This document shows, one piece after another, positions 3,876 to 22,486 of a DNA stretch of 64,000 nt. The position numbers and the translations under genes are program-made. Position 1 is the stretch's first letter, and each line of letters starts with the position of its first letter. The DNA comes from Leifsonia aquatica (GTDB lineage Bacteria; Actinomycetota; Actinomycetes; Actinomycetales; Microbacteriaceae), in contig NZ_JACHVP010000002.1 in NCBI RefSeq assembly GCF_014190775.1, positions 434,001 to 498,000 of the forward strand, read 5' to 3'. The notes under the pieces were generated by a model. It did not search any database, had not been told where the DNA came from, and saw nothing but the letters and a program-made list of their open reading frames with translations.

Positions 3876-4499
3876 ATGGCAGTGGTGAGGACGGAGCGCG
3901 GGCTCGACCGGCTGGTCAACTTCTCCGACGCGACCGTGGCGATCGCGATCACCCTGCTGATCCTGCCCCTCGTCGATCAGGCCGACGACGCCGCCTCCGA
4001 CATCGGCGCGTGGATCCGCGACAACTACTGGGAGCTGATCGCGTTCGCCGTCTCGTTCCTGGTGATCGCCCGGTTCTGGATGACGCACCACCGCATCTTC
4101 GAGTGGGTCGTCAGCTACGACGTCCGCATCATCTGGCTGAACTTCCTGTGGCTGCTGTCCATCGTGATCATGCCGTTCACGACGAACGTGCTCGCCGCGG
4201 GCAAGTCCGGCCAGTCGGCGGTCTACGCCCTGTACATCGGGAACATGCTGCTCGTGTCGGTCTCGATGCAGTTCATCGCCATCGTCCTGCGGCGCACGCC
4301 GGAGCTGGTGCGCGACGACGCGAAGGACGAGATGGATGCGTCGCGCGGCTGGCTCGCCGACATCCTGCTCCTGCTCGCCCTGGTGCTCGCCGTGCTCTTC
4401 CCGCACATCGGCATCTGGTGGCTCTTCGTCCTGTTCCTGCAGGGTCCGCTCAGCGCGCTGGTGAAGGCCGTTCGGCGCAGGCCCGGCGCGACCTCCTGA
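3876..4499 (+). CDS. TMEM175-family (DUF1211) membrane protein
   Basis: This 207-aa protein has about six hydrophobic helices. Near its start it carries RLVNFSDATVAIAITLLIL, matching the RxxxFSD signature that lines the pore of bacterial TMEM175 potassium channels. The ATG at 3876 is five bases after the response-regulator stop, so the gene probably belongs to the same transcript. By family it is a potassium-permeable channel; selectivity and physiological role in this organism are unknown. Confidence 0.8.
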   Translation: MAVVRTERGLDRLVNFSDATVAIAITLLILPLVDQADDAASDIGAWIRDNYWELIAFAVSFLVIARFWMTHHRIFEWVVSYDVRIIWLNFLWLLSIVIMPFTTNVLAAGKSGQSAVYALYIGNMLLVSVSMQFIAIVLRRTPELVRDDAKDEMDASRGWLADILLLLALVLAVLFPHIGIWWLFVLFLQGPLSALVKAVRRRPGATS

Positions 4500-4567
4500 C
4501 CATCCCGGGGTTCCGGCCGGGCCGCGTGCGGTCTACTGTCGGCCGCAGACGGATTCAGGAGGACCGG

Positions 4568-4735
4568 ATGCGCTTCAAGACTTTTCTCGTTCTGATCGGG
4601 ATCGCCGTGGCCTACGTGCTGGGCGCGCGGGCGGGCCGCGAACGCTACCAGCAGATCGTGGGCGCCGTGTCGTCGTTCTGGAACGACCCGAACGTGAAGA
4701 AGACGCGCAAGAAGATCAAGAAGGCGACCCGCTAG
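4568..4735 (+). CDS. Small YtxH-like membrane protein (55 aa)
   Basis: The protein has one N-terminal helix followed by GARAGRERY and a lysine-rich tail (KKTRKKIKKATR). An AGGAGGA ribosome site lies just ahead of the ATG. The layout (short helix, G-x-R-A-G-R-x-x-Y, polar tail) matches YtxH-like proteins and closely resembles the 93-aa protein at 51873-52154. Function is unknown; the basic tail would face the cytoplasm and could bind acidic lipids or nucleic acid. Confidence 0.75.
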   Translation: MRFKTFLVLIGIAVAYVLGARAGRERYQQIVGAVSSFWNDPNVKKTRKKIKKATR

Positions 4736-4766
4736 GCCGCCTCCCCGCCGTCAGCGGCCGAGCGGT

Positions 4767-4988
4767 TTACGGCTCGTCACTGTCCGTGTACTCGCCCTGG
4801 GGCGCGTCGGCCGCTTCGTCGACGTCCGTGTAGGTGCCCTCGACCTCGGTCGTGGGCCCGGGGTCGTCCTCGGTCTCGGTGTACTGGCCGTGGACGGTGC
4901 GCTCGTGGGGGGCTTCGCCGTCGACCTCGGTGTAGCTGCCCTCGAGGTCCTCGCGCGGAGTGTCGGCCGGGTCTGCTGGGGTGCTCAT
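4767..4988 (-). CDS. Acidic four-repeat protein (73 aa)
   Basis: A small, strongly acidic protein with no hydrophobic segment. Four copies of an eight-residue unit occur: GSYTEVDG, GQYTETED, GTYTDVDE and GEYTDSDE, so the consensus is G-x-Y-T-[DE]-x-[DE]-x with spacing of about 16-19 residues. The start ATG is at 4988; longer in-frame starts upstream would overlap the divergent gene. I do not recognise the family. The regular Tyr-Thr with acidic flanks might be a phosphorylation or metal-binding repeat. It is transcribed opposite to both neighbours. Confidence 0.7.
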   Translation of the reverse strand: MSTPADPADTPREDLEGSYTEVDGEAPHERTVHGQYTETEDDPGPTTEVEGTYTDVDEAADAPQGEYTDSDEP

Positions 4989-5115
4989 GGTGCAGACATT
5001 ACGCCCCGCAGGCCTCCAGGTGTAGAGCGCCGTCGATTCGCACGGATGCCCAGGCTGGCCGCGCGTCCTCGCCGGGCGGTACCCTGCGCGCGTCGGCATG
5101 GCGCGGGAGGCTCTC

Positions 5116-7980
5116 ATGGGCGTGTTCACCACCCTGTTCGGCGCGGCGCGCGAGGGCGCCCGCGACCAGAACATCCTGGAGCTGCGCATCCACGGCATCA
5201 AGAACACGCCGCCGGCCGAGATGCTCGGAGTGCCGCCGGGGGAGGTGCGGCCCGACCAGGCCGACGAGAACGGCGGGTTCTTCGTCCCCACCGTCGACCC
5301 GGTCGACCCCACCGACCCGGCGTACCCGCCGACGCGGATCCGGCGCGAGGGCTACTCGTGGGGTCTGATGGCGCGGTACGGCGGGGGTGCCCTGGTCATC
5401 ATCGGGCAGTTCTTCGTGCAGCTGGCCTGGCTGCTCATCCTGCCCTTCGGGCTGTGCAACACGGCGTACTGGACGCGCCGCATCCCCCGGCAGACCGTCG
5501 CCGGCGAGTGGAGAGCGGGGCGCGGCGCCGCGTCGCTGCGGGTGTTCGCGCTCTGCCTGACGCTGCTCTACGTGTGCGCCCTGGCCTCGGTCAGCCTCGA
5601 CCTGATCGGGTCGCAGTGCCTCGCCGGCACGGCGTCGTGCCCGTCGATGCCGGGATGGCTGAACGACTTCTTCGCGCTGCCCGACTTCGATCGGCGCGGC
5701 ATCCGCCTGGCAATGCTCTCCCTGGTCCCCGTGCTCGGCGTCGTGCTCCTGCTGCTGGTCTCGCACACGGCGCGCACCCGCTACGAGGCGGGCATCTTCG
5801 GCACCGTGGACAAGATGCGGCACGCGGAGGAGCGGGGAGGCGCGGCGGCGTCGGCGCCGAACGGCCGCACCCCGCTGGCGACGGAGGGCTTCTGGGGCAT
5901 GACGCGGGTGAAGCTCCCCTCCGAGCTGCTGCACCTGGCCGGATCGCTCTTCCTCGTCGCCGTGCTGCTCGGCTGGGACAACGTGTTCGCCGCCTGCTCG
6001 GGAGGCAGCAGCCGCATCCCCGCCGCCTGCTGGGGCGCCGACCCCGCGCCGCTCACCCGGTGGTGGGTGTCGGCGGCCGTGATCGCCGCGGTCCTCGGCC
6101 TCGTCGTCACCATCGCCCGGGTCATGGCCGACACCGACACGGTCACGCGCCGCCCGGGGGAGCTGACGAGCGCCGCACGGCGCAACCGGGTGCGCCGCAA
6201 GCTGCGGCGGCGCGAGGCGTGGGCGGGATGGACGCTGCTCGCGGCCGTCGTGGTCTACGTCGCCGTGTTCGTCGCGGTGGCCCTCCCCGACCGGGCGCTG
6301 AACTACGCGCGCATCCCCTTCCTCGGCCTGGTGGTCTCCCCGGCGATCGTGACCGGGGTGCTCCTGGCCATCGCGCTCTCGGCCCTCGGCTGGCGCCGGC
6401 TGCCCGAGTGGCCCTCCTCCGCCGCGCGGGTGAAGGAGTGGCTGCCGGCGGTCGTGTGCATCGTCCTCGTGGTGGTCGCCGGGCTCTCCGTCGCGCTCGC
6501 CGTTGTCCTGACGCCCGACGGGGAGCCGCCGCAACCGCCGTCGATCATGGCGTACGCGGTGAGCGCGGCGGCCCTGCTCGTCCTGGCGCTGATCATCGCG
6601 TTCGGGCCGTCCAGAGCGCGCCGTCGCGACGTGCTCCGCTACGAGGGCTGGAGCGGCACCGGGCCGGGTGTCGTCCTCCTGCTCTCGCTCGGCGGCGCCA
6701 TGCTGCTCTCGACCCTCCTGGTCGTGGGGGCGCAGTGCTGGCTGAGCTCGCCGGGGGCGGTCCCCGCCTGCCCGCTCACTCCCGGTCAGGCGGCCCTCGT
6801 CACCCCGGGCGCGTACCGCAACTTCGGGAGCACCGTCCCGGCCCTGGCCGTGCTCCTCCTGCTGCTGATCGCGATCGTGGCCGTCGCCCGGATGAGCACC
6901 ACGCCACGGCTCACCACCCCGCGCACCGAGGGCGGCCGCCCCCTCCGCGCTCCGTTGCGCCGCTACCGTAACGGCACCGTGCCGCGCGCGGGGTCGACCG
7001 GCAAGCTGACGACCCGGATGCTGCGCGCCCGCCGGTTCGCCGGGCTGTTCCACCGCGGCGAGCCCGTCCTCGGCGCGCTCGCCGGCCTGCTCGCCGTGGG
7101 CTGCGCCGTGTCGGTGTCGTTCCCCGACACGTGGCGGCCGACCGCCCTGCTCGACTTCGCCCTGCCAGCGCTGGGGCTGGTCGCCGTCACCGCGATCGTC
7201 ACCATCGCCGAGAACGCGATCACCACCAAGGAGCGGCCGATCGGGATCATGTGGGACCTGATGTGCTTCCTCCCGCGCGCCGGGCACCCGTACGGTCCGC
7301 CCTGCTACGCCGAACGGGTCATCCCCGAGCTGCGCGGGCGTGTCGTCGGGTGGCTCGAGACCGACCTGCTGAAGGGCAAGATCGTCGACGGGCGCGACAT
7401 CCGCACCGAGACGCAGCGGGCCGACGACGAACTCGCCGCGCTGGGCACCGCGCAGCGGCGCAAGGTCGTGCTGAGCGCGCACAGCCTGGGCGGGGTCCTG
7501 GCCGTCTCGTGCCTCTTCACCCTGGGGGCCGACGCGAAGGACGGCCTGCGCAACGTCGGCCTGCTCACGTACGGCACGCAGCTGCGCGCCTTCTTCGGCC
7601 GATTCTTCCCCGAGCTGTTCGGCGGGGAGGTGCTCGGGGTGCGCAAGAGCCAGGGGCCGTCGCTGTGGGCTGCGGATCCCTGGCTGAAGCAGGTGAACCG
7701 CGACCAGACCGCCCCGCCTGTCGTGCGGCCCGGCGACGGGCCGGAGCCCACGCTGCGCGAGCTGCTCACCCAGCCCGACGGCGAGATCGCCTGGATCAAC
7801 CTCTGGCGCCGCACCGACTACCTCGGCTTCCCCGACGACTCGTACGACGACAACGACATCGACCGCGGCGCCGACGAGTTCGGGCCGACGAGGTACCTCG
7901 TGAAGGTCGCGACGCATCCCGGCTACCCCGCGTCGGCGCAGTACATGACGGCGCTGCGCGATCTGGCGCGGAAGATCTGA
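5116..7980 (+). CDS. Large membrane protein with C-terminal serine-hydrolase-like motif
   Basis: A 954-aa protein. A GGGAGG ribosome site supports ATG 5116 over ATG 5098. The N-terminus has a soluble strand ILELRIHGIKNTPPAEMLG, resembling the oxyanion strand (HG) of alpha/beta hydrolases. About ten hydrophobic helices follow through residue ~720. The C-terminal cytoplasmic part contains VVLSAHSLGGVLA, an A-H-S-L-G form of the nucleophile elbow G-x-S-x-G, then a large polar region rich in acidic residues and ending LRDLARKI. I read it as a membrane-embedded lipase/esterase-like protein whose hydrolase core is split around the membrane block. No substrate can be assigned. Confidence 0.75.
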   Translation: MGVFTTLFGAAREGARDQNILELRIHGIKNTPPAEMLGVPPGEVRPDQADENGGFFVPTVDPVDPTDPAYPPTRIRREGYSWGLMARYGGGALVIIGQFFVQLAWLLILPFGLCNTAYWTRRIPRQTVAGEWRAGRGAASLRVFALCLTLLYVCALASVSLDLIGSQCLAGTASCPSMPGWLNDFFALPDFDRRGIRLAMLSLVPVLGVVLLLLVSHTARTRYEAGIFGTVDKMRHAEERGGAAASAPNGRTPLATEGFWGMTRVKLPSELLHLAGSLFLVAVLLGWDNVFAACSGGSSRIPAACWGADPAPLTRWWVSAAVIAAVLGLVVTIARVMADTDTVTRRPGELTSAARRNRVRRKLRRREAWAGWTLLAAVVVYVAVFVAVALPDRALNYARIPFLGLVVSPAIVTGVLLAIALSALGWRRLPEWPSSAARVKEWLPAVVCIVLVVVAGLSVALAVVLTPDGEPPQPPSIMAYAVSAAALLVLALIIAFGPSRARRRDVLRYEGWSGTGPGVVLLLSLGGAMLLSTLLVVGAQCWLSSPGAVPACPLTPGQAALVTPGAYRNFGSTVPALAVLLLLLIAIVAVARMSTTPRLTTPRTEGGRPLRAPLRRYRNGTVPRAGSTGKLTTRMLRARRFAGLFHRGEPVLGALAGLLAVGCAVSVSFPDTWRPTALLDFALPALGLVAVTAIVTIAENAITTKERPIGIMWDLMCFLPRAGHPYGPPCYAERVIPELRGRVVGWLETDLLKGKIVDGRDIRTETQRADDELAALGTAQRRKVVLSAHSLGGVLAVSCLFTLGADAKDGLRNVGLLTYGTQLRAFFGRFFPELFGGEVLGVRKSQGPSLWAADPWLKQVNRDQTAPPVVRPGDGPEPTLRELLTQPDGEIAWINLWRRTDYLGFPDDSYDDNDIDRGADEFGPTRYLVKVATHPGYPASAQYMTALRDLARKI

Positions 7981-8063
7981 CGAGAACTCCCTGTGAACCC
8001 TGGCCCGCTTAAAACCGAGTGTTGTAAGGTATTGCCACCACCCGGCCACATCGAAGGAGAACC

Positions 8064-10307
8064 ATGGTCGACCGTCTCGTCCGCGCAACCGAACTGACCA
8101 CCGAGGAGAAGGCGTCGATCACCTCCGGCGCGAGCTTCTGGGAGACGGAGGCGGTGCAGCGCGTCGGCATCCCCTCCATCTACCTCACCGACGGACCGCA
8201 CGGCGTGCGCAAGCAGAGCCAGGGCGGCGACCACCTCGGCATCGGCGACAGCGTGCCCGCCACCTGCTTCCCGCCCGCGGTCGCCCTCGGCTCGTCCTGG
8301 GACGCCGAGCTGCTGGAGCGCGTCGGCCGCGCCCTCGGCGAGGAGGCCAAGGCCGAAGGCGTCGGCGTGCTCCTCGGCCCGGGCATCAACATCAAGCGGT
8401 CCCCGCTCTGCGGCCGCAACTTCGAGTACCTCTCCGAGGACCCGATCGTGAGCGGCCGCCTCGGCTCCGCCCTCGTCCGCGGCCTCCAGTCGCAGGGCGT
8501 GGGCGCCTCCCTCAAGCACTTCGCCGCCAACAACCAGGAGACCGACCGGATGCGCGTCAGCGCCGACGTCGACGAGCGCCCGCTGCGCGAGATCTACCTC
8601 CGCGGCTTCCAGCGCGTGCAGGATGCCCAGCCGTGGACCGTCATGTGCTCGTACAACCGCATCAACGGCGTCTACGCCAGCGAGGACCCGTGGCTGCTGA
8701 CGAAGGTCCTCCGCGACGAGTGGGGCTTCGAGGGCCTCGTCGTCTCCGACTGGGGCGCGGTGAACGACCGCGTCTCCGCGCTCGCCGCGGGCCTCGACCT
8801 CGAGATGCCGTCCTCCGGCGGCGTCACCGACGCGCAGCTCGTCGCGGCCGTCCGCGACGGCTCGCTCGACGAGTCGGTGCTCGACACCGGCGCGCAGCGT
8901 GTCATCGACCTCGTGCAGAAAGCCGTCGACAACGCGGACGCGGACGCCTCCTACGACGTGGATGCGCACCACGCGCTCGCCCGCGAGGTCGCCGGCCGCA
9001 GCATCGTGCTGCTCAAGAACGACGGCGTGCTCCCGCTCGCCGCCGAGGCCGGCCGCCGCATCGCCGTCGTCGGCGAGTTCGCGCGCACCCCGCGCTACCA
9101 GGGCGCCGGCTCGTCGCAGATCGTCCCGACCCGTCTCGACAACGCGCTCGACGAGATCCAGGCTCTCGCCGGCGACGCCGAGGTGACCTTCGCCGCGGGC
9201 TACGCGCTCGGCACCGAGGGCGACACCGCCGCTCTTACGGCCGAGGCGGTCGCTGCGGCTTCCGCCGCCGACGACGTCCTGCTCTTCCTGGGCCTGCCGG
9301 GCGAGGACGAGTCCGAGGGCTTCGACCGCGAGCACATCGAGCTGCCCGCCGCGCAGACCGCGCTCCTGGAGGCCGTGCTCGCCGCCAACCCGCGCGTCGC
9401 CGTCGTGCTCTCCAACGGAGGCGTCGTGCGCGTCTCCGGCTGGGCCGACCGCGTGCCCGCGATCGTCGAGGGCTGGCTGCTCGGCCAGGCCGGCGGCGGC
9501 GCCGTCGCGGACGTGCTCTTCGGCGTCGTGAACCCGTCCGGCCGCCTGGCCGAGACCGTGATTGCCCACCTCGGGGACACCGCGGCGTCGATCAACTTCC
9601 CCGGCGAGAAGGGGCACGTGCGCTACGGCGAGGGCCTGTTCGTCGGCTACCGCGATCTGGATGCGCGGGAGGTGGCCGTCAGCTTTCCGTTCGGCCACGG
9701 TCTCTCGTACACGACCTTCGACTTCGGCGCCCCCGCGGTCGAGGCGACGGCCGACGGCGGCATCCGCGTCTCCGTGGACGTGACCAACAGCGGCGGTCGC
9801 GACGGCCGCGAGGTCGTGCAGGTCTACGTGGCGCTGCCCGGCTCGGCCGTGACGCGTCCGGTCCGCGAGCTCAAGGGCTTCGCGAACGTCGCGGTCGCCG
9901 CCGGCGCCACCGAGAGCGTCGTCATCGAGATCCCCGCCGACGACCTCGCCTACTACGACACCGATCTCGCCGGCTGGATCGTCGAGGGCGGCGACTACGT
10001 CGTCTCGGTCGGCGCCTCGTCCCGCGATCTGCGCGGCAGCGCGACGGTGAGCGTCGCCGGCGACGGCAAGGCCGTCCCGCTCTCGGTCGAGTCCACGCTC
10101 GGCGAGTGGCTGAGCCACCCGGTCGGCGCGCAGGTGCTCGGAGCTGCCCTCGCCCAGACCGGCGATGCCGCGGTCGCCGGGATGCTGGCCGACCCGGGGC
10201 TGCGCCGCATGGCCGAGGGCATCCCGCTCATCCGCGCCATCGGCTTCTCGGGCAACGCCGTCTCGCCCGAGCAGCTCGACCAGCTCGTGGCCGCAGCGAA
10301 CGCCTAA
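8064..10307 (+). CDS. Glycoside hydrolase family 3 beta-glucosidase
   Basis: A 747-aa cytoplasmic enzyme (no signal peptide). The N-terminal TIM barrel contains LTDGPHGVRK, KHFAANNQE and the nucleophile motif VVSDWGA (Asp ~229). The alpha/beta sandwich follows with SIVLLKNDGVLPL. A fibronectin-III-like domain with VTNSGGRDGREVVQVYV lies at about 560-640. A GAAGGAG ribosome site lies eight bases before the ATG. The preceding gap has a short AT-rich stretch (8010-8035) that likely holds the promoter. By family it removes terminal beta-linked glucose or related sugars from imported oligosaccharides. It has no transporter next to it. Confidence 0.92.
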   Translation: MVDRLVRATELTTEEKASITSGASFWETEAVQRVGIPSIYLTDGPHGVRKQSQGGDHLGIGDSVPATCFPPAVALGSSWDAELLERVGRALGEEAKAEGVGVLLGPGINIKRSPLCGRNFEYLSEDPIVSGRLGSALVRGLQSQGVGASLKHFAANNQETDRMRVSADVDERPLREIYLRGFQRVQDAQPWTVMCSYNRINGVYASEDPWLLTKVLRDEWGFEGLVVSDWGAVNDRVSALAAGLDLEMPSSGGVTDAQLVAAVRDGSLDESVLDTGAQRVIDLVQKAVDNADADASYDVDAHHALAREVAGRSIVLLKNDGVLPLAAEAGRRIAVVGEFARTPRYQGAGSSQIVPTRLDNALDEIQALAGDAEVTFAAGYALGTEGDTAALTAEAVAAASAADDVLLFLGLPGEDESEGFDREHIELPAAQTALLEAVLAANPRVAVVLSNGGVVRVSGWADRVPAIVEGWLLGQAGGGAVADVLFGVVNPSGRLAETVIAHLGDTAASINFPGEKGHVRYGEGLFVGYRDLDAREVAVSFPFGHGLSYTTFDFGAPAVEATADGGIRVSVDVTNSGGRDGREVVQVYVALPGSAVTRPVRELKGFANVAVAAGATESVVIEIPADDLAYYDTDLAGWIVEGGDYVVSVGASSRDLRGSATVSVAGDGKAVPLSVESTLGEWLSHPVGAQVLGAALAQTGDAAVAGMLADPGLRRMAEGIPLIRAIGFSGNAVSPEQLDQLVAAANA

Positions 10308-15582: not shown

Positions 15583-16314
15583 ATGACGCACCCCAGCCGC
15601 ACGCGCCGCGATCTGCGACGCCGCGTGCTCGGCGTGCTGCCGGCCGTCGGTGCGGCCGCCATCGTGGCGAGCGCCGTGCTGGTCGTCGCCGGTACACCGC
15701 ACACCTCGGCGGCCTACCGCGACGACGCGTATCTGAACCTGACCGCAGGAGGGGGCACGCCGATGGGCACGCCCTCGTACGACCTGATGTTCCGGTACCG
15801 CACCTCCGGCACCTGGAGCTCGGGCGAGTCCGGTATGTCCGAGTGGATCCAGGCCGACGCCGACGGCGGAATCGACGTGCCGGACGCCGTCAACTGCCGG
15901 ACGCCGCTCATGGTCGCCGGAAAGACCTCCGACGCGTCGGCGTGCCACGCGGAGATCCAGGTGCGCAACATGAGCCCGCAACTCGCGTCCTTCCTCACGA
16001 CGACGGTGGCGGCCGGCCCGGACTCGGATCCGGGTATGGCGGCCGCCGTGCGCTACGGGTTGTGGTCTGGGTCCCCCACCTCCCGATTCATCTACGTCGA
16101 CAACAACCGCCTGGGCGCGGTGACGACGCTGGTCTCCGGCCCGGGCCGCACCGGCCCGCTGCTGACCGCGCACGGGACGGCGAACGACAACGCGCACCTC
16201 GAGTTCATCTTCTGGCTGTCCGACCAGGGAGCCGCCGGGAACGCAGCCCTCAAGGGCAAGAGCCTCAGCCTGCAGATCTCATTCGCGGGCCGGTCCGAGG
16301 TGCTCGGCCGGTAA
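15583..16314 (+). CDS. SipW-type secreted surface protein (243 aa)
   Basis: First gene of the operon. The N-terminus is basic (RTRRDLRRRV), followed by a hydrophobic helix (LPAVGAAAIVASAVLVVAG) and then TSAAYRDDAYLNL. This is the cleavage-region pattern of SipW-dependent proteins (TasA/camelysin type: aromatic-x-D-x2-x-Y-L-N-L). The mature part is beta-rich, with a paired Cys (CRTPL and SACHAE) and a C-terminal strand LSLQISFAG. No cell-wall anchor is seen. Processing by the signal peptidase encoded at 18386 is inferred. It may be a fibre-type or matrix protein. Confidence 0.7.
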   Translation: MTHPSRTRRDLRRRVLGVLPAVGAAAIVASAVLVVAGTPHTSAAYRDDAYLNLTAGGGTPMGTPSYDLMFRYRTSGTWSSGESGMSEWIQADADGGIDVPDAVNCRTPLMVAGKTSDASACHAEIQVRNMSPQLASFLTTTVAAGPDSDPGMAAAVRYGLWSGSPTSRFIYVDNNRLGAVTTLVSGPGRTGPLLTAHGTANDNAHLEFIFWLSDQGAAGNAALKGKSLSLQISFAGRSEVLGR

Positions 16315-16409
16315 CGCCTCATCCCATCCCATCCCACCCCACACACGTCCGCGCCAGCTGCGGTACGGGTGCACCCATGCCGGATGCACCGAACTACGAA
16401 AGGAACACA

Positions 16410-17066
16410 GTGCAGACCTCCAAGCACAACGGTCGCCGTCGGGCGATCATCGCCGGCGGCGCCCTCCTCGGCGTTGCGGCCCTGACCACTGCTGCGCTCT
16501 TCACGGACAACGCCTACCTGAACCTCGGCGGGTCCGGCGACGGCAACGGCGAATTCAGCACCGGGGGCCGGCTGAACATCCAGGTCGTCCAGACCAAGGC
16601 CGACTTCACTCCGAAGCACGAGACCTTCGAGGCGGCCAAGGCGGCGGGAGAGTGGCAGGAGGCGAACGACCCGGCAGGTGTCTCGTTCGCGATCGTCGGT
16701 GCCGACGCCCTCATCCCGGGCGACGGGCAGTGGCGTAGCGTCAACATCCCGTTCATCAGCGACGAGGGCGGCTCGCTCGGCTACCTCGACGTCACCCTCG
16801 AAGACAAGGGCGGCGACCCCGTTCTGCGCGACGCGCTCCGATTCACCGTGTCCGTGGACGGCGCGCCCCTGCCGGGACTGACGAACGTCCGCTACTCCAC
16901 GGTTCTGAAGAAGGCCATGGGCGGCGCCATCAACCCCGGTAACGGCGGCGTGCTCAAGGTCGCCGTGAACCTCCCCGACCAGGGCAGCGACGAAGCGAAC
17001 AACGCGCTCGCCGGCAAGTCGTCCAAGATCCAGGCGATCATCCACGCGGAGAGCGAGCCTCGCTAG
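16410..17066 (+). CDS. SipW-type secreted protein, TasA-like (218 aa)
   Basis: GTG 16410 has a GAAAGGA ribosome site. The in-frame ATG at 16377 lacks one. The signal region is KHNGRRRAIIAGGALLGVAALTTAALFTDNAYLNL, abbreviated here as basic block, helix, then ALFTDNAYLNLGG. The FTDNAYLNL stretch matches the first protein's YRDDAYLNL. The mature domain is beta-sandwich-like: NIQVVQTKADF, VNIPFISDEGGSLGYLDVTLED, LRFTVSVDGAPL. This is the organisation of TasA/camelysin fibre proteins. It contains no Cys and no anchor. Confidence 0.72.
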   Translation: MQTSKHNGRRRAIIAGGALLGVAALTTAALFTDNAYLNLGGSGDGNGEFSTGGRLNIQVVQTKADFTPKHETFEAAKAAGEWQEANDPAGVSFAIVGADALIPGDGQWRSVNIPFISDEGGSLGYLDVTLEDKGGDPVLRDALRFTVSVDGAPLPGLTNVRYSTVLKKAMGGAINPGNGGVLKVAVNLPDQGSDEANNALAGKSSKIQAIIHAESEPR

Positions 17067-17148
17067 TGATCCGACGGTGGCGGGGAGGCGCAGCCGCCCC
17101 GCCACCGGTCGATTCCCATCCCCCTTCCCCCATCCCCGCCGAACGAGA

Positions 17149-17808
17149 ATGGACCCGAGCGTGACCTCCCCCTCCACTCCTGCGCGCGCGACCGTGCCGC
17201 GCGGACGTCTGCGTGCCGTGCTGACCGCGGGTGTCCTGCTCGGCATCGGCGCGGTCTGCACCGCGGCGACCCTCTCCGGGTCCGCCCCCGTGCTGACCCA
17301 CCTCGACGGCCGGACCAACTACATCGCGGTCCAGACCGTGGCCGCCGACGCGAATACCGAACTCCCCGCGTGGCCGAGCGAGGCGGAGAACTCCTCGTTC
17401 ACTCTCGACCTCGGCGGTGACCGGCTCCTCGAGCCCGGCGACAGCCACACGTTCCGGATGGCGGTCCGCAACGCGAGTCCGCGACTCTCGGCCGACCTCA
17501 CGATGACCATCACGCCGCCGCGGGCCGACACGGCCGCCGGACGAGATGCTCTCCGCATGTTCGAGGCGCTCCAGTTCACCGTTCGCGAAGGCAGCACCGT
17601 CCTCGTCGACCACGTCGGCGGCTCTGATGCGGCGCAGCTCGTCCGCCGGCTCCCCGGCACCGTCGGTTCGGGCGGCGTACGCCGGCTCGAGATCGACGTC
17701 GCGCTCCCCACGACGGCCGTCGGTGACCTCCAGGGCCTCCGGACGCCCGTCCAGCTCGCCTTCACCGGCACCAGCACCTATCCCGCCGACCGATCGGTCT
17801 TCGAATGA
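17149..17808 (+). CDS. Secreted beta-rich surface protein (219 aa)
   Basis: Third gene of the operon. The start is chosen at ATG 17149, with GTG 17161 possible; ribosome sites are weak for both. The N-terminal region is RGRLRAVLTAGVLLGIGAV then TAATLSGSAPVLTHLDGRTNYIAVQ. The DGRTNYI stretch is a diverged form of the SipW-substrate motif in its neighbours. The mature part has the same plan as TasA-like proteins: SFTLDLGGDRLLEPGDSHTF, a strand-rich core, and LQLAF-type closing strand PVQLAFTGTS. It overlaps the next gene by four bases. Confidence 0.65.
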   Translation: MDPSVTSPSTPARATVPRGRLRAVLTAGVLLGIGAVCTAATLSGSAPVLTHLDGRTNYIAVQTVAADANTELPAWPSEAENSSFTLDLGGDRLLEPGDSHTFRMAVRNASPRLSADLTMTITPPRADTAAGRDALRMFEALQFTVREGSTVLVDHVGGSDAAQLVRRLPGTVGSGGVRRLEIDVALPTTAVGDLQGLRTPVQLAFTGTSTYPADRSVFE

Positions 17809-18389
17809 ACAGGAATCTCGCGTTGCGTGCGTTCTCTCGCCTGCTGCTCGTCCTCGGTGCTGCCACCGTCGCTCTGAGCGTGCCGACGGCAGCGCAGGCG
17901 GCCGATCCCTTGCTCTCCGTCGAGAGCACCAGCGTGACGGTTCAAGCACCCGCTCCGGGTGAGACCTGGTCGCAGAGCTACTCCACCCGGAACATCAGCG
18001 CGGGTCCCGTGCGCGTGAGCGTCGCCCTCACCGACCGTTCCGGGACCATCTGGACGGGCCCGTTCCCGGTCGCCGTCTCGCACGACTCCGTCCGACTGGG
18101 CGACGAGCCGGTCTCCTTGGGATCGGTCGCACCCGGCGAACGCGCGAGCGTGACGCTCGACTTCTCGCAGTCGTACGAGGCGGGCAACGAGTACGCACGG
18201 CAGAGCGGCGACGTGACCGTAGTGTTCACCGCCGTCGCCGAGACCGCGTCCCAGCCGGGCGCAGAGGACCTCGCTCGAACGGGTGCCACGACAATGGTTC
18301 CGGCGATCGTCGCCGCCGTCGTCCTGCTCACCGCCGGTGCCGTCGTCTTCGTCATCGCGCGACGTCGATCGAAAACGCACGGAGTATGA
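17805..18389 (+). CDS. LAxTG-anchored surface protein (194 aa)
   Basis: The protein has a classical signal peptide ending AAQAADP (cleavage near residue 32), a beta-sandwich of about 120 residues (VTVQAPAPGETWSQSYS, SVALTDRSGTIW), and the sorting signal LARTG at 156-160. A hydrophobic helix and basic tail RRRSKTHGV follow. LAxTG is the signal read by class E sortases in actinobacteria, so it is probably wall-anchored. It may be the anchor subunit for the TasA-like proteins of the operon. ATGA overlap on both sides. No sortase gene lies in the window. Confidence 0.75.
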   Translation: MNRNLALRAFSRLLLVLGAATVALSVPTAAQAADPLLSVESTSVTVQAPAPGETWSQSYSTRNISAGPVRVSVALTDRSGTIWTGPFPVAVSHDSVRLGDEPVSLGSVAPGERASVTLDFSQSYEAGNEYARQSGDVTVVFTAVAETASQPGAEDLARTGATTMVPAIVAAVVLLTAGAVVFVIARRRSKTHGV

Positions 18390-19036
18390 GTCCCGGCTGG
18401 CGCGTGTACGCCGGGATCCGCAATGTGCTGCTCACAGCCGGAGCGGTGGTCGGCGGGGCGTGCATCCTCATCTTCGCGCTCGGAATGTTCCTCGGGGTGA
18501 AGCCGGCGATCGTGGTCTCCGGCTCGATGCTCCCCACGATCCCGGTCGGAGCGATGACGTTCTCGCTCGACCGCCCGGCTTCGCAGCTGGAGGTCGGCGA
18601 CGTCGTCATGGTCGAGCGACCTGACGACCAGGGTCTCGTGACGCACCGGATCGTCGAGCTGGAGAAGACCGGTGGCCGCGCCTCGCTCACCCTCCAGGGT
18701 GACAACAACGACGTGACCGACCCCGAGCCGTATCTCGTGAAGCAGGCCGCGGTCGTCGTGTTCACGGTTCCGTTGCTCGGTTACATCGCCGACTACGTGC
18801 AGCGCCAGGGCATCCTCGTCGGAGTCATCCTCCTCAGCGTGATCGCGGCGCTGCTGGTGCTCGACCCGGCGAGGCTCGGTCGCCGACGCGAGGGCGAGCC
18901 GGAATCCGGGACCCCTTCCTCGCCCGAGACGACCGCCGAACTCGGCGTCGACGACGAACTCGACGTGGCGCAAGCCGACCCCATGACACGCCCTCGATCC
19001 GCCCGCCGTGCCGTGCGCAAGGAGAATGCCCAGTGA
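18386..19036 (+). CDS. sipW: SipW-type signal peptidase I (S26B)
   Basis: A 216-aa membrane peptidase. An N-terminal helix leads to VVSGSMLPTIPVG, with catalytic Ser at residue 47. The second catalytic position is His (LVTHRIVEL, His 87) where standard bacterial LepB has Lys. This Ser/His pair marks the ER/archaeal-like SipW class. A QGDNNDVTDPEPY block follows, then a second helix and an acidic-then-basic cytoplasmic tail. Its place among proteins with SipW-type leaders indicates that it cleaves them at the outer face of the membrane. It overlaps both neighbours by four bases. Confidence 0.9.
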   Translation: MSPGWRVYAGIRNVLLTAGAVVGGACILIFALGMFLGVKPAIVVSGSMLPTIPVGAMTFSLDRPASQLEVGDVVMVERPDDQGLVTHRIVELEKTGGRASLTLQGDNNDVTDPEPYLVKQAAVVVFTVPLLGYIADYVQRQGILVGVILLSVIAALLVLDPARLGRRREGEPESGTPSSPETTAELGVDDELDVAQADPMTRPRSARRAVRKENAQ

Positions 19037-20436
19037 ACAGCACCCCCACACCTCGGCGCAGGCGACGCGTCGCGCGACCAGTGCTCCTCGGAGCGGGTGG
19101 CGTGGCGATCGTGGCAGCGCTCGGCATGGTCGCCGTCACGGGCGCCGACTTCACGGATCGTGGTCAGTTCAACTACCGGGTGACCGCCGAGGGGTCCCCG
19201 CCCCCGACCACTCCGCCGGCCACCGGCAACGGCGTACCCTCGCAGAACTTCTCGAACCGGCACTCCCTCGCACGCAGCAAGAACGTCCTCTACGGCTGGG
19301 GCGGCGGCGTGACGACCGGCACTGGTGCCGGCTCGCAGTCCCTCCTCCCCGTCGTCATGCCGTCCGGCACGACCTTCACGGAGATCGCGGCAGGTCCGAG
19401 CCACAACCTCGCGATCGACCAGAACGGTGACATCTGGGGTTGGGGCAACGGTCTCCAGGGCGCGCTCGGACCGGCGGGCAACACCGCGGTGTCCACCCCG
19501 ATCAAAGTCACGGCGACGTCGACGAAATTCCGCAAGGTGGCGGCCGGCGGCTACGTCAACCTGGGCAACGGGTCGGTCAACACCGGAACGAGCTTCGCGA
19601 TCGACACCAACGGCAACCTGTGGAGCTGGGGCTCCTGGAACGGCGGCATGTCCACGGCCTGGACGGTGCTGGGCGATGGAAGCCGCGCCAGCAGGAGCAC
19701 CCCCCGGCAGATCACCACGGGCATCGACTTCGTCGACGTCGCGGCCGGGTGGGAGAAGAACGCGGCCGTCACCCGCGATGGCTACGTGTACACGTGGGGG
19801 AGCAACCACTACGCCAGCCTCGCCCTCTCGGACACCTACTCCACGTCGGCGGTGCCGACGCCGACACGGTCCCCGTACCTCAAGAACATCGTGAAGGTCG
19901 CCTTCGGCGGACGCACCGCCTACGCCATCGACGGCGAGGGTTTCGCCTGGGTGTGGGGCAACAAGAGTCCGACGCTGGGCGCCAGCACCCTGGGCGGCGC
20001 GAGCGCGACCGACTGCAAATGGTCCTCCAGCAGCGAGCAGACGACCGCCTCAGCCGCCGTCTGCGTCCCGGCCCGTGTGCCACGCGGCAGCAATCCTCCG
20101 TACACGGACATCTCCGCCGGCGAGTCGAATGTCTACGTTCTGGATGCGGCCGGGGCGGTCTGGAGCTGGGGCGGCAACCGATTCGGCAACACCGGCGACG
20201 GCACCCTCGGCACCATCGCGAACAGGGACACCCTCGTCCCGACGAAAGCGATCTTCCCCGCCGGAATCAAGGTGGAGGCGGTCGTCGCCGCGTACTTCGG
20301 CGGCGTGGCCGTCGATACGACCGGCGGAGTCTGGACCTGGGGGCGTGTCGGCATGACCGGCACCAACCTCCTCGGCGACGGCCGGAACACGTGGGGGGAT
20401 CAGGACGGCCAATTGACCCCGAAGAAGGTGAAGTGA
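19033..20436 (+). CDS. Surface RCC1-repeat seven-bladed propeller protein
   Basis: A 467-aa protein starting at GTG 19033 with an AAGGAGAA ribosome site. The leader is basic (RRRRRVARPV), then a helix, then GADFTDRGQFNYRV, a variant of the SipW cleavage motif. A Pro/Thr linker follows. Seven W-x-W-G-type blade motifs occur in order: LYGWGGG, IWGWGNG, LWSWGSW, VYTWGSN, AWVWGNK, VWSWGGN and VWTWGRV, the count for one closed RCC1 propeller. Residues such as ITTGIDFVDVAAGWEKNAAV give the typical inter-blade pattern. RCC1 propellers bind proteins or ligands. Secretion by SipW is inferred. Confidence 0.85.
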   Translation: MNSTPTPRRRRRVARPVLLGAGGVAIVAALGMVAVTGADFTDRGQFNYRVTAEGSPPPTTPPATGNGVPSQNFSNRHSLARSKNVLYGWGGGVTTGTGAGSQSLLPVVMPSGTTFTEIAAGPSHNLAIDQNGDIWGWGNGLQGALGPAGNTAVSTPIKVTATSTKFRKVAAGGYVNLGNGSVNTGTSFAIDTNGNLWSWGSWNGGMSTAWTVLGDGSRASRSTPRQITTGIDFVDVAAGWEKNAAVTRDGYVYTWGSNHYASLALSDTYSTSAVPTPTRSPYLKNIVKVAFGGRTAYAIDGEGFAWVWGNKSPTLGASTLGGASATDCKWSSSSEQTTASAAVCVPARVPRGSNPPYTDISAGESNVYVLDAAGAVWSWGGNRFGNTGDGTLGTIANRDTLVPTKAIFPAGIKVEAVVAAYFGGVAVDTTGGVWTWGRVGMTGTNLLGDGRNTWGDQDGQLTPKKVK

Positions 20437-22079
20437 TGCGACGCGTGAGATCACTCAGACGACTCCCTGTGCTGCTGCTCGGTGTGCTGCTGGCCATCGT
20501 GCCCGCAGCGACCGCAACGGCGGAAACCCACGTGTACGGGGAGGTCGCGATCTACTCGTACGACGATCAGGATGTCAGCAAGGTCAGTATGTCCGGCGAC
20601 CTGCTCGCTGTGAGCCGCACAGGCCGTGCGGTCGAGGTGATGCGTGTCGACGACACGGGGGCCAAGCTGGACTCCGATACGGTCCCGGCGCCGGAGGGCA
20701 TGACGCGTTTCGGCTACTCGATCGCGATCGACGAGGCGAGCGGTCGTCTGTTCGTGGGGACGAATGACTCCGTCGTGCTCGAGTACGTTCTCTCGACCGG
20801 AGGGGGAGGCTGGCGCTGGCTCCCGGGCAGGACCTTCGTCGCGGCCGGATCGAGCGGCTTCGGGGAATCCCTCTCCGTGCACGGCGATCGGCTCGCCGTG
20901 GGCGCATACGACACCGATTTCGGCGCGGGCGCCGCCTACGTCATCGACCTCGGATCGGGTGCCGTGCAGCGCGCGGGCGTCACCGGCCTCTATCTGACCG
21001 CCGGCATGGGAGACGAAGTCCTCCTCACCGACCGGTACCTCATCGCCAACGCGCACATGATCAAGAAGTGGCCGGGCGATGGCAGGAGCATCCAGACGGG
21101 CGGGGTCTACATCTGGGATCTCGCTGACCTGTCCGCCCCGCTCACGTTCCTCGACCATCCGCTCTGGGGGGTCGACGTCGCGGAGCACAAGACGCGCATC
21201 TACGAGGACGCGGGCGGAACCGCGGGCTTCGGTTACCAGATCGCGGTGACGGACGATTACCTCTGGGTCTCGTCCCCCGCGGACATCAACTACACCTCCG
21301 ACGATCTCCGCGATCCGGTCGGCGGCATCGTCCAATCCGCACTCGATTCCGGCACCACGACCCAGGGCGCGATGTACCGCTTCTCGCTGGGCGACTTCAC
21401 GCAGGTCGGCCCGAGGATCATCCCCCCGCCGCACGAATTCAGCATGGGCCACAACATGACCGCCGTCGGCAACGCCGTGCTCGTCTCGGCCGAGACCAAC
21501 GCGGACGGGCGAACCGGACGCGTGCATGTCTACGATGCCGACGCGATCCCCACGACGGGGACCCCGGGGGATCTGATGCGTCAGCAGCCCGAACCGGTCC
21601 AGGACTTGCAGGGCTCGGACTCACGGCCGGGCGACCGGTTCGGTGCCCTCTACTCGAACGGCGTGCTCGCTGCCGACGGCGGCCGGGCGATCATCGCGAG
21701 CAAGGGGTCGGCCGGTGGGTCCCGCGGCAAGGCCTACCTCTTCTCCCCGATCGTCCCGAACGTCGTCGAGTGGCCGATGACCCTCGAGGCCCCGGACATC
21801 GTCTACGGCCAGGAGGGACGCGTCGTCGCGAGCGTTCCGGGTCTGACCGGGCCCGTGCGGGTCACGCTCGCACTCGACGGGGACGAACGGGAGGCGGACA
21901 CGAATGCGGACGGGGTCGCGGAGTTCGTCTTCCGGCCCGCGCAGCATCCCGCCGGGACGTATCCCGCCGAGGTCTCCTTCCTTGCTCGGGGTGGACTGGA
22001 CTCTGGACATGCGACCGGTGAGTACGTCGTCCGCAAGGCGCCGACCACCGTCGTGAACACGAAGGTGGAGGTGCGCTGA
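20436..22079 (+). CDS. Secreted FG-GAP propeller protein with Ig-like C-terminus
   Basis: A 547-aa protein with an ordinary Sec signal peptide (RRLPVLLLGVLLAIVPAATA, cleavage near ATA-ETH). The body has FG-GAP/integrin-alpha-like repeats: TRFGYSIAIDEAS, SGFGESLSVHGDRLAVGAY, AGFGYQIAVTDDYLWVSSP and PGDRFGALYSNGVLAADGG. An Ig-like domain covers about residues 445-540 (APDIVYGQEGRVVASVPG, ending TGEYVVRKAPTTV). No anchor motif. TGATG junctions couple it to both neighbours. Likely an extracellular adhesion or scaffold protein. Confidence 0.75.
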   Translation: MRRVRSLRRLPVLLLGVLLAIVPAATATAETHVYGEVAIYSYDDQDVSKVSMSGDLLAVSRTGRAVEVMRVDDTGAKLDSDTVPAPEGMTRFGYSIAIDEASGRLFVGTNDSVVLEYVLSTGGGGWRWLPGRTFVAAGSSGFGESLSVHGDRLAVGAYDTDFGAGAAYVIDLGSGAVQRAGVTGLYLTAGMGDEVLLTDRYLIANAHMIKKWPGDGRSIQTGGVYIWDLADLSAPLTFLDHPLWGVDVAEHKTRIYEDAGGTAGFGYQIAVTDDYLWVSSPADINYTSDDLRDPVGGIVQSALDSGTTTQGAMYRFSLGDFTQVGPRIIPPPHEFSMGHNMTAVGNAVLVSAETNADGRTGRVHVYDADAIPTTGTPGDLMRQQPEPVQDLQGSDSRPGDRFGALYSNGVLAADGGRAIIASKGSAGGSRGKAYLFSPIVPNVVEWPMTLEAPDIVYGQEGRVVASVPGLTGPVRVTLALDGDEREADTNADGVAEFVFRPAQHPAGTYPAEVSFLARGGLDSGHATGEYVVRKAPTTVVNTKVEVR

Positions 22080-22486
22080 TGGTCCGGACGACCTTCGCCC
22101 CGCTGATCCGCGCGGCCGTCGGCCTGTCGCTCTCGGCACTGATCGCGGCGGGCATGCTCCTCGCCGGCGGTCTCGGCCCGAGCACGACCACCGCCGCCTA
22201 CCATGACGACGCCTATATGAATCTCTCGATGACGGTCGTCGACAAGCGCACCGCCGTCGTCACCGGCCGAATCGAGGCGCAGTACGGCACCATCCCGACA
22301 GGCACGGTCACCCTGGTGCGCGGCGCGGACACGCTTGCGACGGCGACGCTCGACGCCGGCGCCTATCGGTTCGAGCTCGCCGTGCCGATGACGTGGTCCG
22401 GAGACGTGGAGCTGGAGGTCGTCTACGGAGGCGACGCCAACCACGACGCCAGCCGGAGCGCCGTCACGGTCTCCCTGGGCGCCTGA
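22079..22486 (+). CDS. SipW-type secreted single Ig-like domain protein (135 aa)
   Basis: Last gene of the operon. After a hydrophobic leader comes TTTAAYHDDAYMNLSM, almost identical to AYRDDAYLNL of the first gene. The mature part is one bacterial Ig-like (Big_3-type) domain: IEAQYGTIPTGTVTLVRGA, VELEVVYGGDANHDASRSAV. It contains no anchor and no Cys. It could cap or decorate the surface structure. It overlaps the FG-GAP gene's stop (TGATG). Confidence 0.7.
   Translation: MVRTTFAPLIRAAVGLSLSALIAAGMLLAGGLGPSTTTAAYHDDAYMNLSMTVVDKRTAVVTGRIEAQYGTIPTGTVTLVRGADTLATATLDAGAYRFELAVPMTWSGDVELEVVYGGDANHDASRSAVTVSLGA

Follow-up and report, generated by a model that had tools for sequence, protein, structure and literature searches.

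What kind of surface structure is made by eight adjacent genes of Leifsonia aquatica that encode seven secreted proteins and one signal peptidase? The genes, called g1 to g8 here, all lie on the + strand at 15583-22486 of a 64,000-nucleotide (nt) stretch of contig NZ_JACHVP010000002.1 (positions 434,001 to 498,000; this whole stretch is the window below), in a host genome of 4.4 Mb on 9 contigs. An initial annotation, made from the letters alone, had described a SipW-centred operon with TasA-like proteins, an RCC1 propeller and an LAxTG-anchored subunit, and had proposed a wall-anchored fibre or adhesion complex. All eight open reading frames (ORFs) were present, and the description needed only small corrections. 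Our analysis favours, with a probability of about 0.58, an operon for a cell-wall-anchored, heteropolymeric donor-strand fibre, in which g2 would be the main subunit, the propeller g6 a donor-only tip and the sorted protein g4 an acceptor-only anchor.

The mature g2 sequence was modelled with AlphaFold2 together with 20 relatives, giving a predicted local distance difference test score (pLDDT) of 79.1 and a predicted template modelling score (pTM) of 0.76. The model has an N-terminal strand at residues 2-10, followed by a poorly modelled stretch at 11-24. Its best match in VIA-align, a tool that warns that a Z under 8 may reflect a common arrangement only, was the TasA fibre 8aur (Z 8.1, 132 residues aligned, root-mean-square deviation 2.6 Å), followed by the TasA crystal structures 5of1 (Z 7.8) and 5of2 (7.3) and the archaeal bundling pili 7ueg (6.8), with other beta-sandwiches matching from Z 6.7 down. 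A TasA-like fold had been suggested for this 218-residue protein, and a TasA fibre is its top structural match. A profile of the g2 family, run against the L. aquatica genome at E ≤ 1e-5, retrieved g2, g3 (1.6e-13), g1 (3.9e-13) and nothing else. The 243- and 219-residue products of g1 and g3, also put forward as TasA-like, are homologous to g2 by this search and by hhalign of the mature families, which gave 99.7% for g3, 98.7% for g1, and 99.5% and 99.8% for gX and gY, two TasA-like proteins of related loci; each value is a single pairwise comparison, and the g1 family consisted of two sequences. We regard g2 as a borderline prediction of a TasA-type jelly roll, with g1, g3, gX and gY as its homologues.

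Mature Bacillus TasA starts at an aromatic-x-Asp motif. The leader motifs first read in g1, g2, g3, g6 and g8 were confirmed as quoted. Ordinary AxA-type leaders were found on g4 and g7, which leaves SipW-type leaders on five of the seven secreted products, in diverged form on g3. A degenerate DNA pattern for [FY]xD[DN]AY[LM]N matched three times in the 4.4 Mb of the genome, each time in this operon (g1, g2 and g8), and the reversed-pattern control gave 0 matches. Among g2 relatives the strict motif was found in 29/37. TIGR04088, the model for SipW-type leaders, was weak in 5 of the 15 members searched (best 0.0062). The peptidase g5 scored 69.1 bits against TIGR02228 (cut-off 51.85), which makes it a SipW/archaeal-type signal peptidase (S26), and it contains the motifs SGSM, THR and GDNN; it fell below the cut-off of the Bacillus SipW equivalog (63.9 vs 190 bits).

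The LARTG sorting signal of g4, which comes with a hydrophobic segment and a positively charged tail, passed NCBIfam NF058582 (31.2 bits, cut-off 27), and [LI]xxTG was found near the C-terminus of 27/27 g4 relatives. An aromatic-x-Asp leader end occurred within the first 75 residues of 0/27 relatives, and an AxA motif, in a loose test, in 24/27; two of the relatives (L037 and L068) had been called without their leader. When compared by hhalign, g3 and g4 matched at 97.0% (E 1.1e-10), with g3 columns 44-183 aligned to g4 columns 18-142, or 22-189 to 1-143 without realignment, and g4 and gX at 89.7%. The g4 domain starts some 20-25 columns later than that of g3, and thus lacks the N-terminal donor segment. 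The g4 model (pLDDT 86.4, pTM 0.73) matched the FimH pilin domain first (Z 8.9), then FocH (8.7), CsuA/B (8.3) and CS20 (8.0), and ranks 1-13 were all donor-strand pilins. We take this match as suggestive, because the Foldseek result was weak and Ig-like folds are common. By these comparisons g4 is related to the TasA-like subunits, minus the donor segment, and its predicted fold is pilin-like. The resemblance to pilins is one of fold only, as no usher or chaperone family was found among the operon proteins (NCBIfam and Pfam). Sortase-class and type IV pili were dropped as candidates, since family searches found neither a pilus-specific sortase nor a prepilin peptidase among the eight proteins. 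Class E sortases prefer LAxTG. One is encoded in the L. aquatica genome (244.3 bits, cut-off 160) about 137 kb from the operon, along with a second, unclassified sortase match.

The propeller g6 matched the RCC1-like domain PF25390 at 166.4 bits (cut-off 150) and PF00415 at 84 (21.7), while g7 matched FG-GAP_2 (PF14312, 26.1 bits; cut-off 23) and g8 Big_3_5 (PF16640, 40.7 bits; 35.5). The RCC1, FG-GAP and Ig-like identities given by the initial annotation are upheld by these models, as are, by those named above, its Ser/His signal peptidase and its LAxTG-type wall-sorted subunit. In related loci, RCC1-like Pfam models were found in 33/34 operon propellers. The exception, L038, holds two DUF5122 beta-propeller proteins in the usual RCC1 position (4276-6802, - strand), which looks like a swap for RCC1. 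The aromatic-x-Asp motif followed the hydrophobic core in 31/33 operon propellers, a count that leaves out the broken copies in L035 and L049 and the second L038 protein, which has no leader. As background, the motif occurred in 8/158 other genes of these loci whose products start with a hydrophobic segment, and in 1/8 RCC1 proteins outside such operons. That sole positive (L121) comes from genome G030, whose own operon (L039) has no propeller. Three of the seven negatives are weak controls, namely L119 and L126, which have no clear leader, and L123, which lies beside a SipW-like gene; L030/L122 was left out, as no gene start could be called. From its leader, the operon propeller looks like a likely SipW substrate.

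Some of these loci are unusual in themselves. L039 carries the g2-g3 block twice, in near-identical form, around sucC/sucD-like genes. At L123 (3378-7519, - strand) a 596-residue RCC1 protein adjoins another SipW-like peptidase and small secreted proteins of a different leader type. In L035 and L049, both from Leifsonia sp. 71-9, the RCC1 gene is split in two by a stop, which may be an assembly error of this metagenome-assembled genome (MAG).

We propose the following assembly. The peptidase g5 would cut the leaders just before aromatic-x-Asp, so that g1, g2, g6 and g8 would each gain a free N-terminal donor strand, as would g3 in diverged form. The TasA-like proteins g1, g2, g3, gX and gY would then be both donors and acceptors, the propeller and g8 (the rest of which is an Ig-like domain) donors only, and g4 an acceptor only. 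Because the propeller would have a donor strand and no TasA-like domain, it could only start or cap a chain, and because g4 has a subunit-like domain and no donor strand, it could only accept the last one. Assembly would run from the propeller to g4, which would accept the final strand and then be linked to the wall by a sortase. Most of the chain would be g2, present in excess owing to a hairpin past its stop codon, with g1 and g3 as minor subunits; the finished fibre may serve in adhesion. That this is a class of fibre with both ends encoded in the operon, a donor-only tip formed by an exchangeable propeller (RCC1 or DUF5122) and an acceptor-only, sortase-linked wall end, is a more tentative proposal, to which we would give slightly less than even odds.

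The window does not hold a lone cluster. A protein search with g2 was positive in 13/99 genomes (L. aquatica included), and a scan of contigs with an alignment of seven g2 sequences returned 24 loci, in Leifsonia, Arthrobacter, Leucobacter, Microbacterium, Sanguibacter, Propionicicella, Oerskovia, Cellulomonas and Cellulosimicrobium and in MAGs of Microbacteriaceae, Micrococcales, Leucobacter and Propionibacteriaceae. The nearest cluster found among these was that of L049, with a g2 100% identical. Two loci, L058 and L059, in which the operon is truncated by the end of the contig, were left out. In six-frame ORFs of the other 22, a propeller with a SipW-type leader or a remnant of one, SipW, g3 and a g4 with [LIV]xxTG were each present in 22/22, gX in 21 and gY in 19. 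In a further 14 loci (L035-L048) the propeller, SipW and the g4 motif were each present in 13; the sets are not disjoint, since L035 and L049 are one contig. Genes were called with a purpose-written caller, so starts are approximate, and the profiles used for counting were partly built from the counted loci, which makes the labels partly circular; the Pfam models and the sorting motif are independent of this. The initial annotation had suggested a search for SipW, RCC1 and a sorting signal together in Microbacteriaceae, and their conservation reaches beyond that family. A search of plasmids with g2 gave no match.

The commonest gene order was g2, g3, gX, g4, propeller, gY, SipW, with neighbours swapped in some loci (for example, the propeller ahead of g4 in L054 and L056). 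Leifsonia-type copies (the window, L035/L049 and L036) have the order g1-g2-g3-g4-SipW-RCC1-g7-g8, lack gX and gY, and are the only ones in which g7 and g8 were seen. The window is thus a rearranged copy of a recurring operon.

A sample of the order, searched with the g2 profile, gave 18/297 positive genomes at E ≤ 1e-5 (L. aquatica included), of which seven, again with L. aquatica, had a propeller operon. In two of these operons (L102 and L103) leaders were diverged and no g4 was recognised; the propeller comes first, subunit leaders are of VDGEYG type, and a SipW was seen in L103. The other 11 genomes, and a second locus of G350, resemble the window operon in combining SipW with small TasA-like proteins (L104-L115), and differ from it in their W-T-D leaders (AAWTD type), mostly longer SipW and lack of a propeller (0/12 loci). 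Since none of the 12 carries one, the propeller goes with one class of SipW operon. The g4 profile matched once among them, at 21 bits. Contig ends truncate two of these loci (L108 and L115), and the class was not counted as support. L. aquatica itself has a locus of this other SipW class (L003, in C5:64000-82000 of its genome), where a second SipW-type peptidase of 449 residues (7132-10232, - strand) adjoins two small proteins with AAWTD/AAWND-type leaders and a 1896-residue protein.

Just past the g2 stop codon lies a stem-loop of -36.1 kcal/mol (z -2.50). A z below -2 was found in the 80 nt after g2 in 22 of 36 loci, compared with 1/34 after g3, 0/24 after gX, 2/27 after g4, 1/36 after the propeller, 4/26 after gY and 9/34 after SipW. 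Because these other stretches are mostly coding, a second comparison used the remaining same-strand gaps, 45-200 nt long, of these loci. Stem scores of at least 30 occurred after g2 in 23/35 loci and in 7/80 other gaps (rank test p 6e-7, a value that is too small, since related loci are not independent). Stems vary in sequence and not in position. A terminator scan of the window returned two sites, both on the - strand and no more than in shuffles, which excludes a U-tract terminator for the g2 hairpin. We infer that the hairpin, by processing or stabilisation, raises g2 above its neighbours.

Such a bias bears on an unlikely alternative, a short wall-anchored complex with no polymer, in which the TasA-like proteins would join once each, through strand exchange or side contacts, g4 would anchor them and the propeller would be an exposed ligand binder. 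Several TasA-like subunits of similar size, with one anchor and one propeller per operon, would suit this arrangement; the hairpin singling out g2 suggests unequal amounts instead, as for a main subunit, and the closest folds are those of fibre formers. We find it harder still to believe that the TasA-like proteins and the propeller are released as a biofilm-matrix set and that g4 is a separate surface protein sharing only the operon. TasA is a matrix protein in Bacillus, according to PMC9674648, which would fit; against a separate role, g4 was present in 22/22 uninterrupted loci and is homologous to g3.

Several results weigh against the donor-strand fibre itself. The Z of 8.1 between the g2 model and TasA is near the edge by the yardstick of the tool. 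Foldseek gave no match at E ≤ 1e-3 for the g2 model (TasA fibre: E 1.4e-2, TMq 0.46), nor for that of g4. Among PDB sequences the g2 profile reached no TasA chain at E ≤ 10, and only two unrelated chains (best E 0.76). At E ≤ 0.1 none of the 15 members was matched by the Pfam camelysin model, nor does any other Pfam family fit, so by sequence these proteins fall outside the TasA/camelysin family. The strict leader motif was found in only 7/33 g3 relatives, most being diverged, and in 12/26 of gY. As scored by hhalign, g4 is much less close to g2 (78.0%), gY (26.2%) and g1 (0.1%) than to g3. No sortase gene lies beside the operon. One locus each lacks an operon propeller (L039), a SipW within 19 kb (L038) and a sorting motif (L047), and 12/35 loci have no strong hairpin after g2. 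In a sample of the phylum the g2 profile found L. aquatica as the sole positive of 296 genomes, so that either the system is patchy or the profile is narrow. The weak Foldseek values, the lack of a match to TasA chains and the commonness of Ig-like folds would also fit beta-sandwiches without strand exchange, with a common jelly roll and a leader end that is a SipW recognition site only, which we think very doubtful: the four top structural matches of g2 are all TasA or bundling-pilus chains, and g4 has neither a SipW-type leader nor the corresponding N-terminal segment, and its model resembles donor-strand pilins most.

Among known systems, the TapA-SipW-TasA system of Bacillus subtilis also has SipW in the operon, an aromatic-x-Asp subunit start and a jelly-roll subunit. 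The attachment of TasA fibres to the cell and the nature of their ends are unsettled in PMC9674648 and PMC10151520, where TapA is thought to anchor and start the fibre and to give the first donor strand; its own Ig fold is complete, and PMC10151520 calls a role past initiation unlikely. By analogy with this account, the propeller would be a donor-only partner like TapA. The Leifsonia operon is unlike the B. subtilis system in its several TasA-like subunits, its propeller with a SipW-type leader, its sortase substrate related to the subunits and its lack of a TasA sequence match. TasA homologues are known in several branches of bacteria and archaea, according to PMC10151520. The Bacillus cereus system of TasA, CalY and CapP (PMC13082335) likewise has SipW, two TasA-like subunits and a helper protein, and differs in being described as sortase-independent; no RCC1 propeller is described in the accessible portion of that paper. 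From predicted folds and leaders, we expect the operon to work in the manner of a TasA fibre; by sequence, it stands outside that family.

Outside Bacillus, the archaeal bundling pili of Pyrobaculum calidifontis (7ueg) resemble g2 in fold, as noted, and also g4 (Z 6.5). Chaperone-usher pili (FimH, Csu and Pap) have the donor-strand-accepting domains that the g4 model matched best, and differ in their Gram-negative assembly. In bee bifidobacteria RCC1 propellers are also found on an actinobacterial surface; there, according to PMC4449606, the propeller carries LPxTG itself, whereas here a separate protein does so and the propeller has a SipW-type leader. In the open-access literature we found, among the titles listed, no description joining SipW or TasA with RCC1, or of such an actinobacterial operon. 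If the proposal is true, a TasA-type fibre would be covalently bound to the wall in Micrococcales and Propionibacteriales. The operon, recurring in nine genera, offers candidate parts for both fibre ends and a testable rule, readable in the sequence, that would sort its proteins into pure donors, pure acceptors and those that are both, and it would assign a role to one set of bacterial RCC1 propellers.

Beside the operon, in seven loci, there are large LuxR-type regulators of 840-856 residues (L050, L060 and L066) or sigma-70-like factors with long C-terminal extensions (482-899 residues; L053, L056, L061 and L064). None is adjacent in the window, where a promoter scan found no site. The features of the window are listed in Table 1.

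Table 1. Positions in the window of the eight genes and two associated elements (aa, amino acids).
Feature	Position	Strand	Product length	Description
g1	15583-16314	+	243 aa	Putative minor TasA-like subunit; SipW-type leader AYRDDAYLNL
g2	16410-17066	+	218 aa, GTG start	Proposed main TasA-like subunit; leader FTDNAYLNL
Hairpin	17068-17115	+		Strong; directly 3' of the g2 stop
g3	17149-17808	+	219 aa from this ATG, start uncertain	Putative TasA-like subunit; diverged leader DGRTNYI
g4	17805-18389	+	194 aa	Sortase substrate; proposed acceptor-only wall anchor
LARTG sorting motif of g4	18270-18284	+		
g5	18386-19036	+	216 aa	SipW-like Ser/His signal peptidase
g6	19033-20436	+	467 aa, GTG start	RCC1-type beta-propeller; SipW-type leader FTDRGQFNY; proposed donor-only tip
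g7	20436-22079	+	547 aa	FG-GAP protein; ordinary leader
g8	22079-22486	+	135 aa	Ig-like protein; SipW-type leader AYHDDAYMNL

The initial annotation had the genes joined by ATGA or TGATG overlaps for most of their length. This holds for five of the seven junctions (ATGA, ATGA, GTGA, TGATG and TGATG, with GTGA as an addition to the two types) and fails at g1-g2 and g2-g3, which are gaps of 95 and 82 nt. A search at E ≤ 1 placed no NCBIfam or Pfam family above its own cut-off for g1, g2 or g3. Compared with the congener copy L036, to which they are 47-73% identical, all eight genes had a non-synonymous divergence (dN) below the synonymous (dS), with ratios of about 0.25-0.6.

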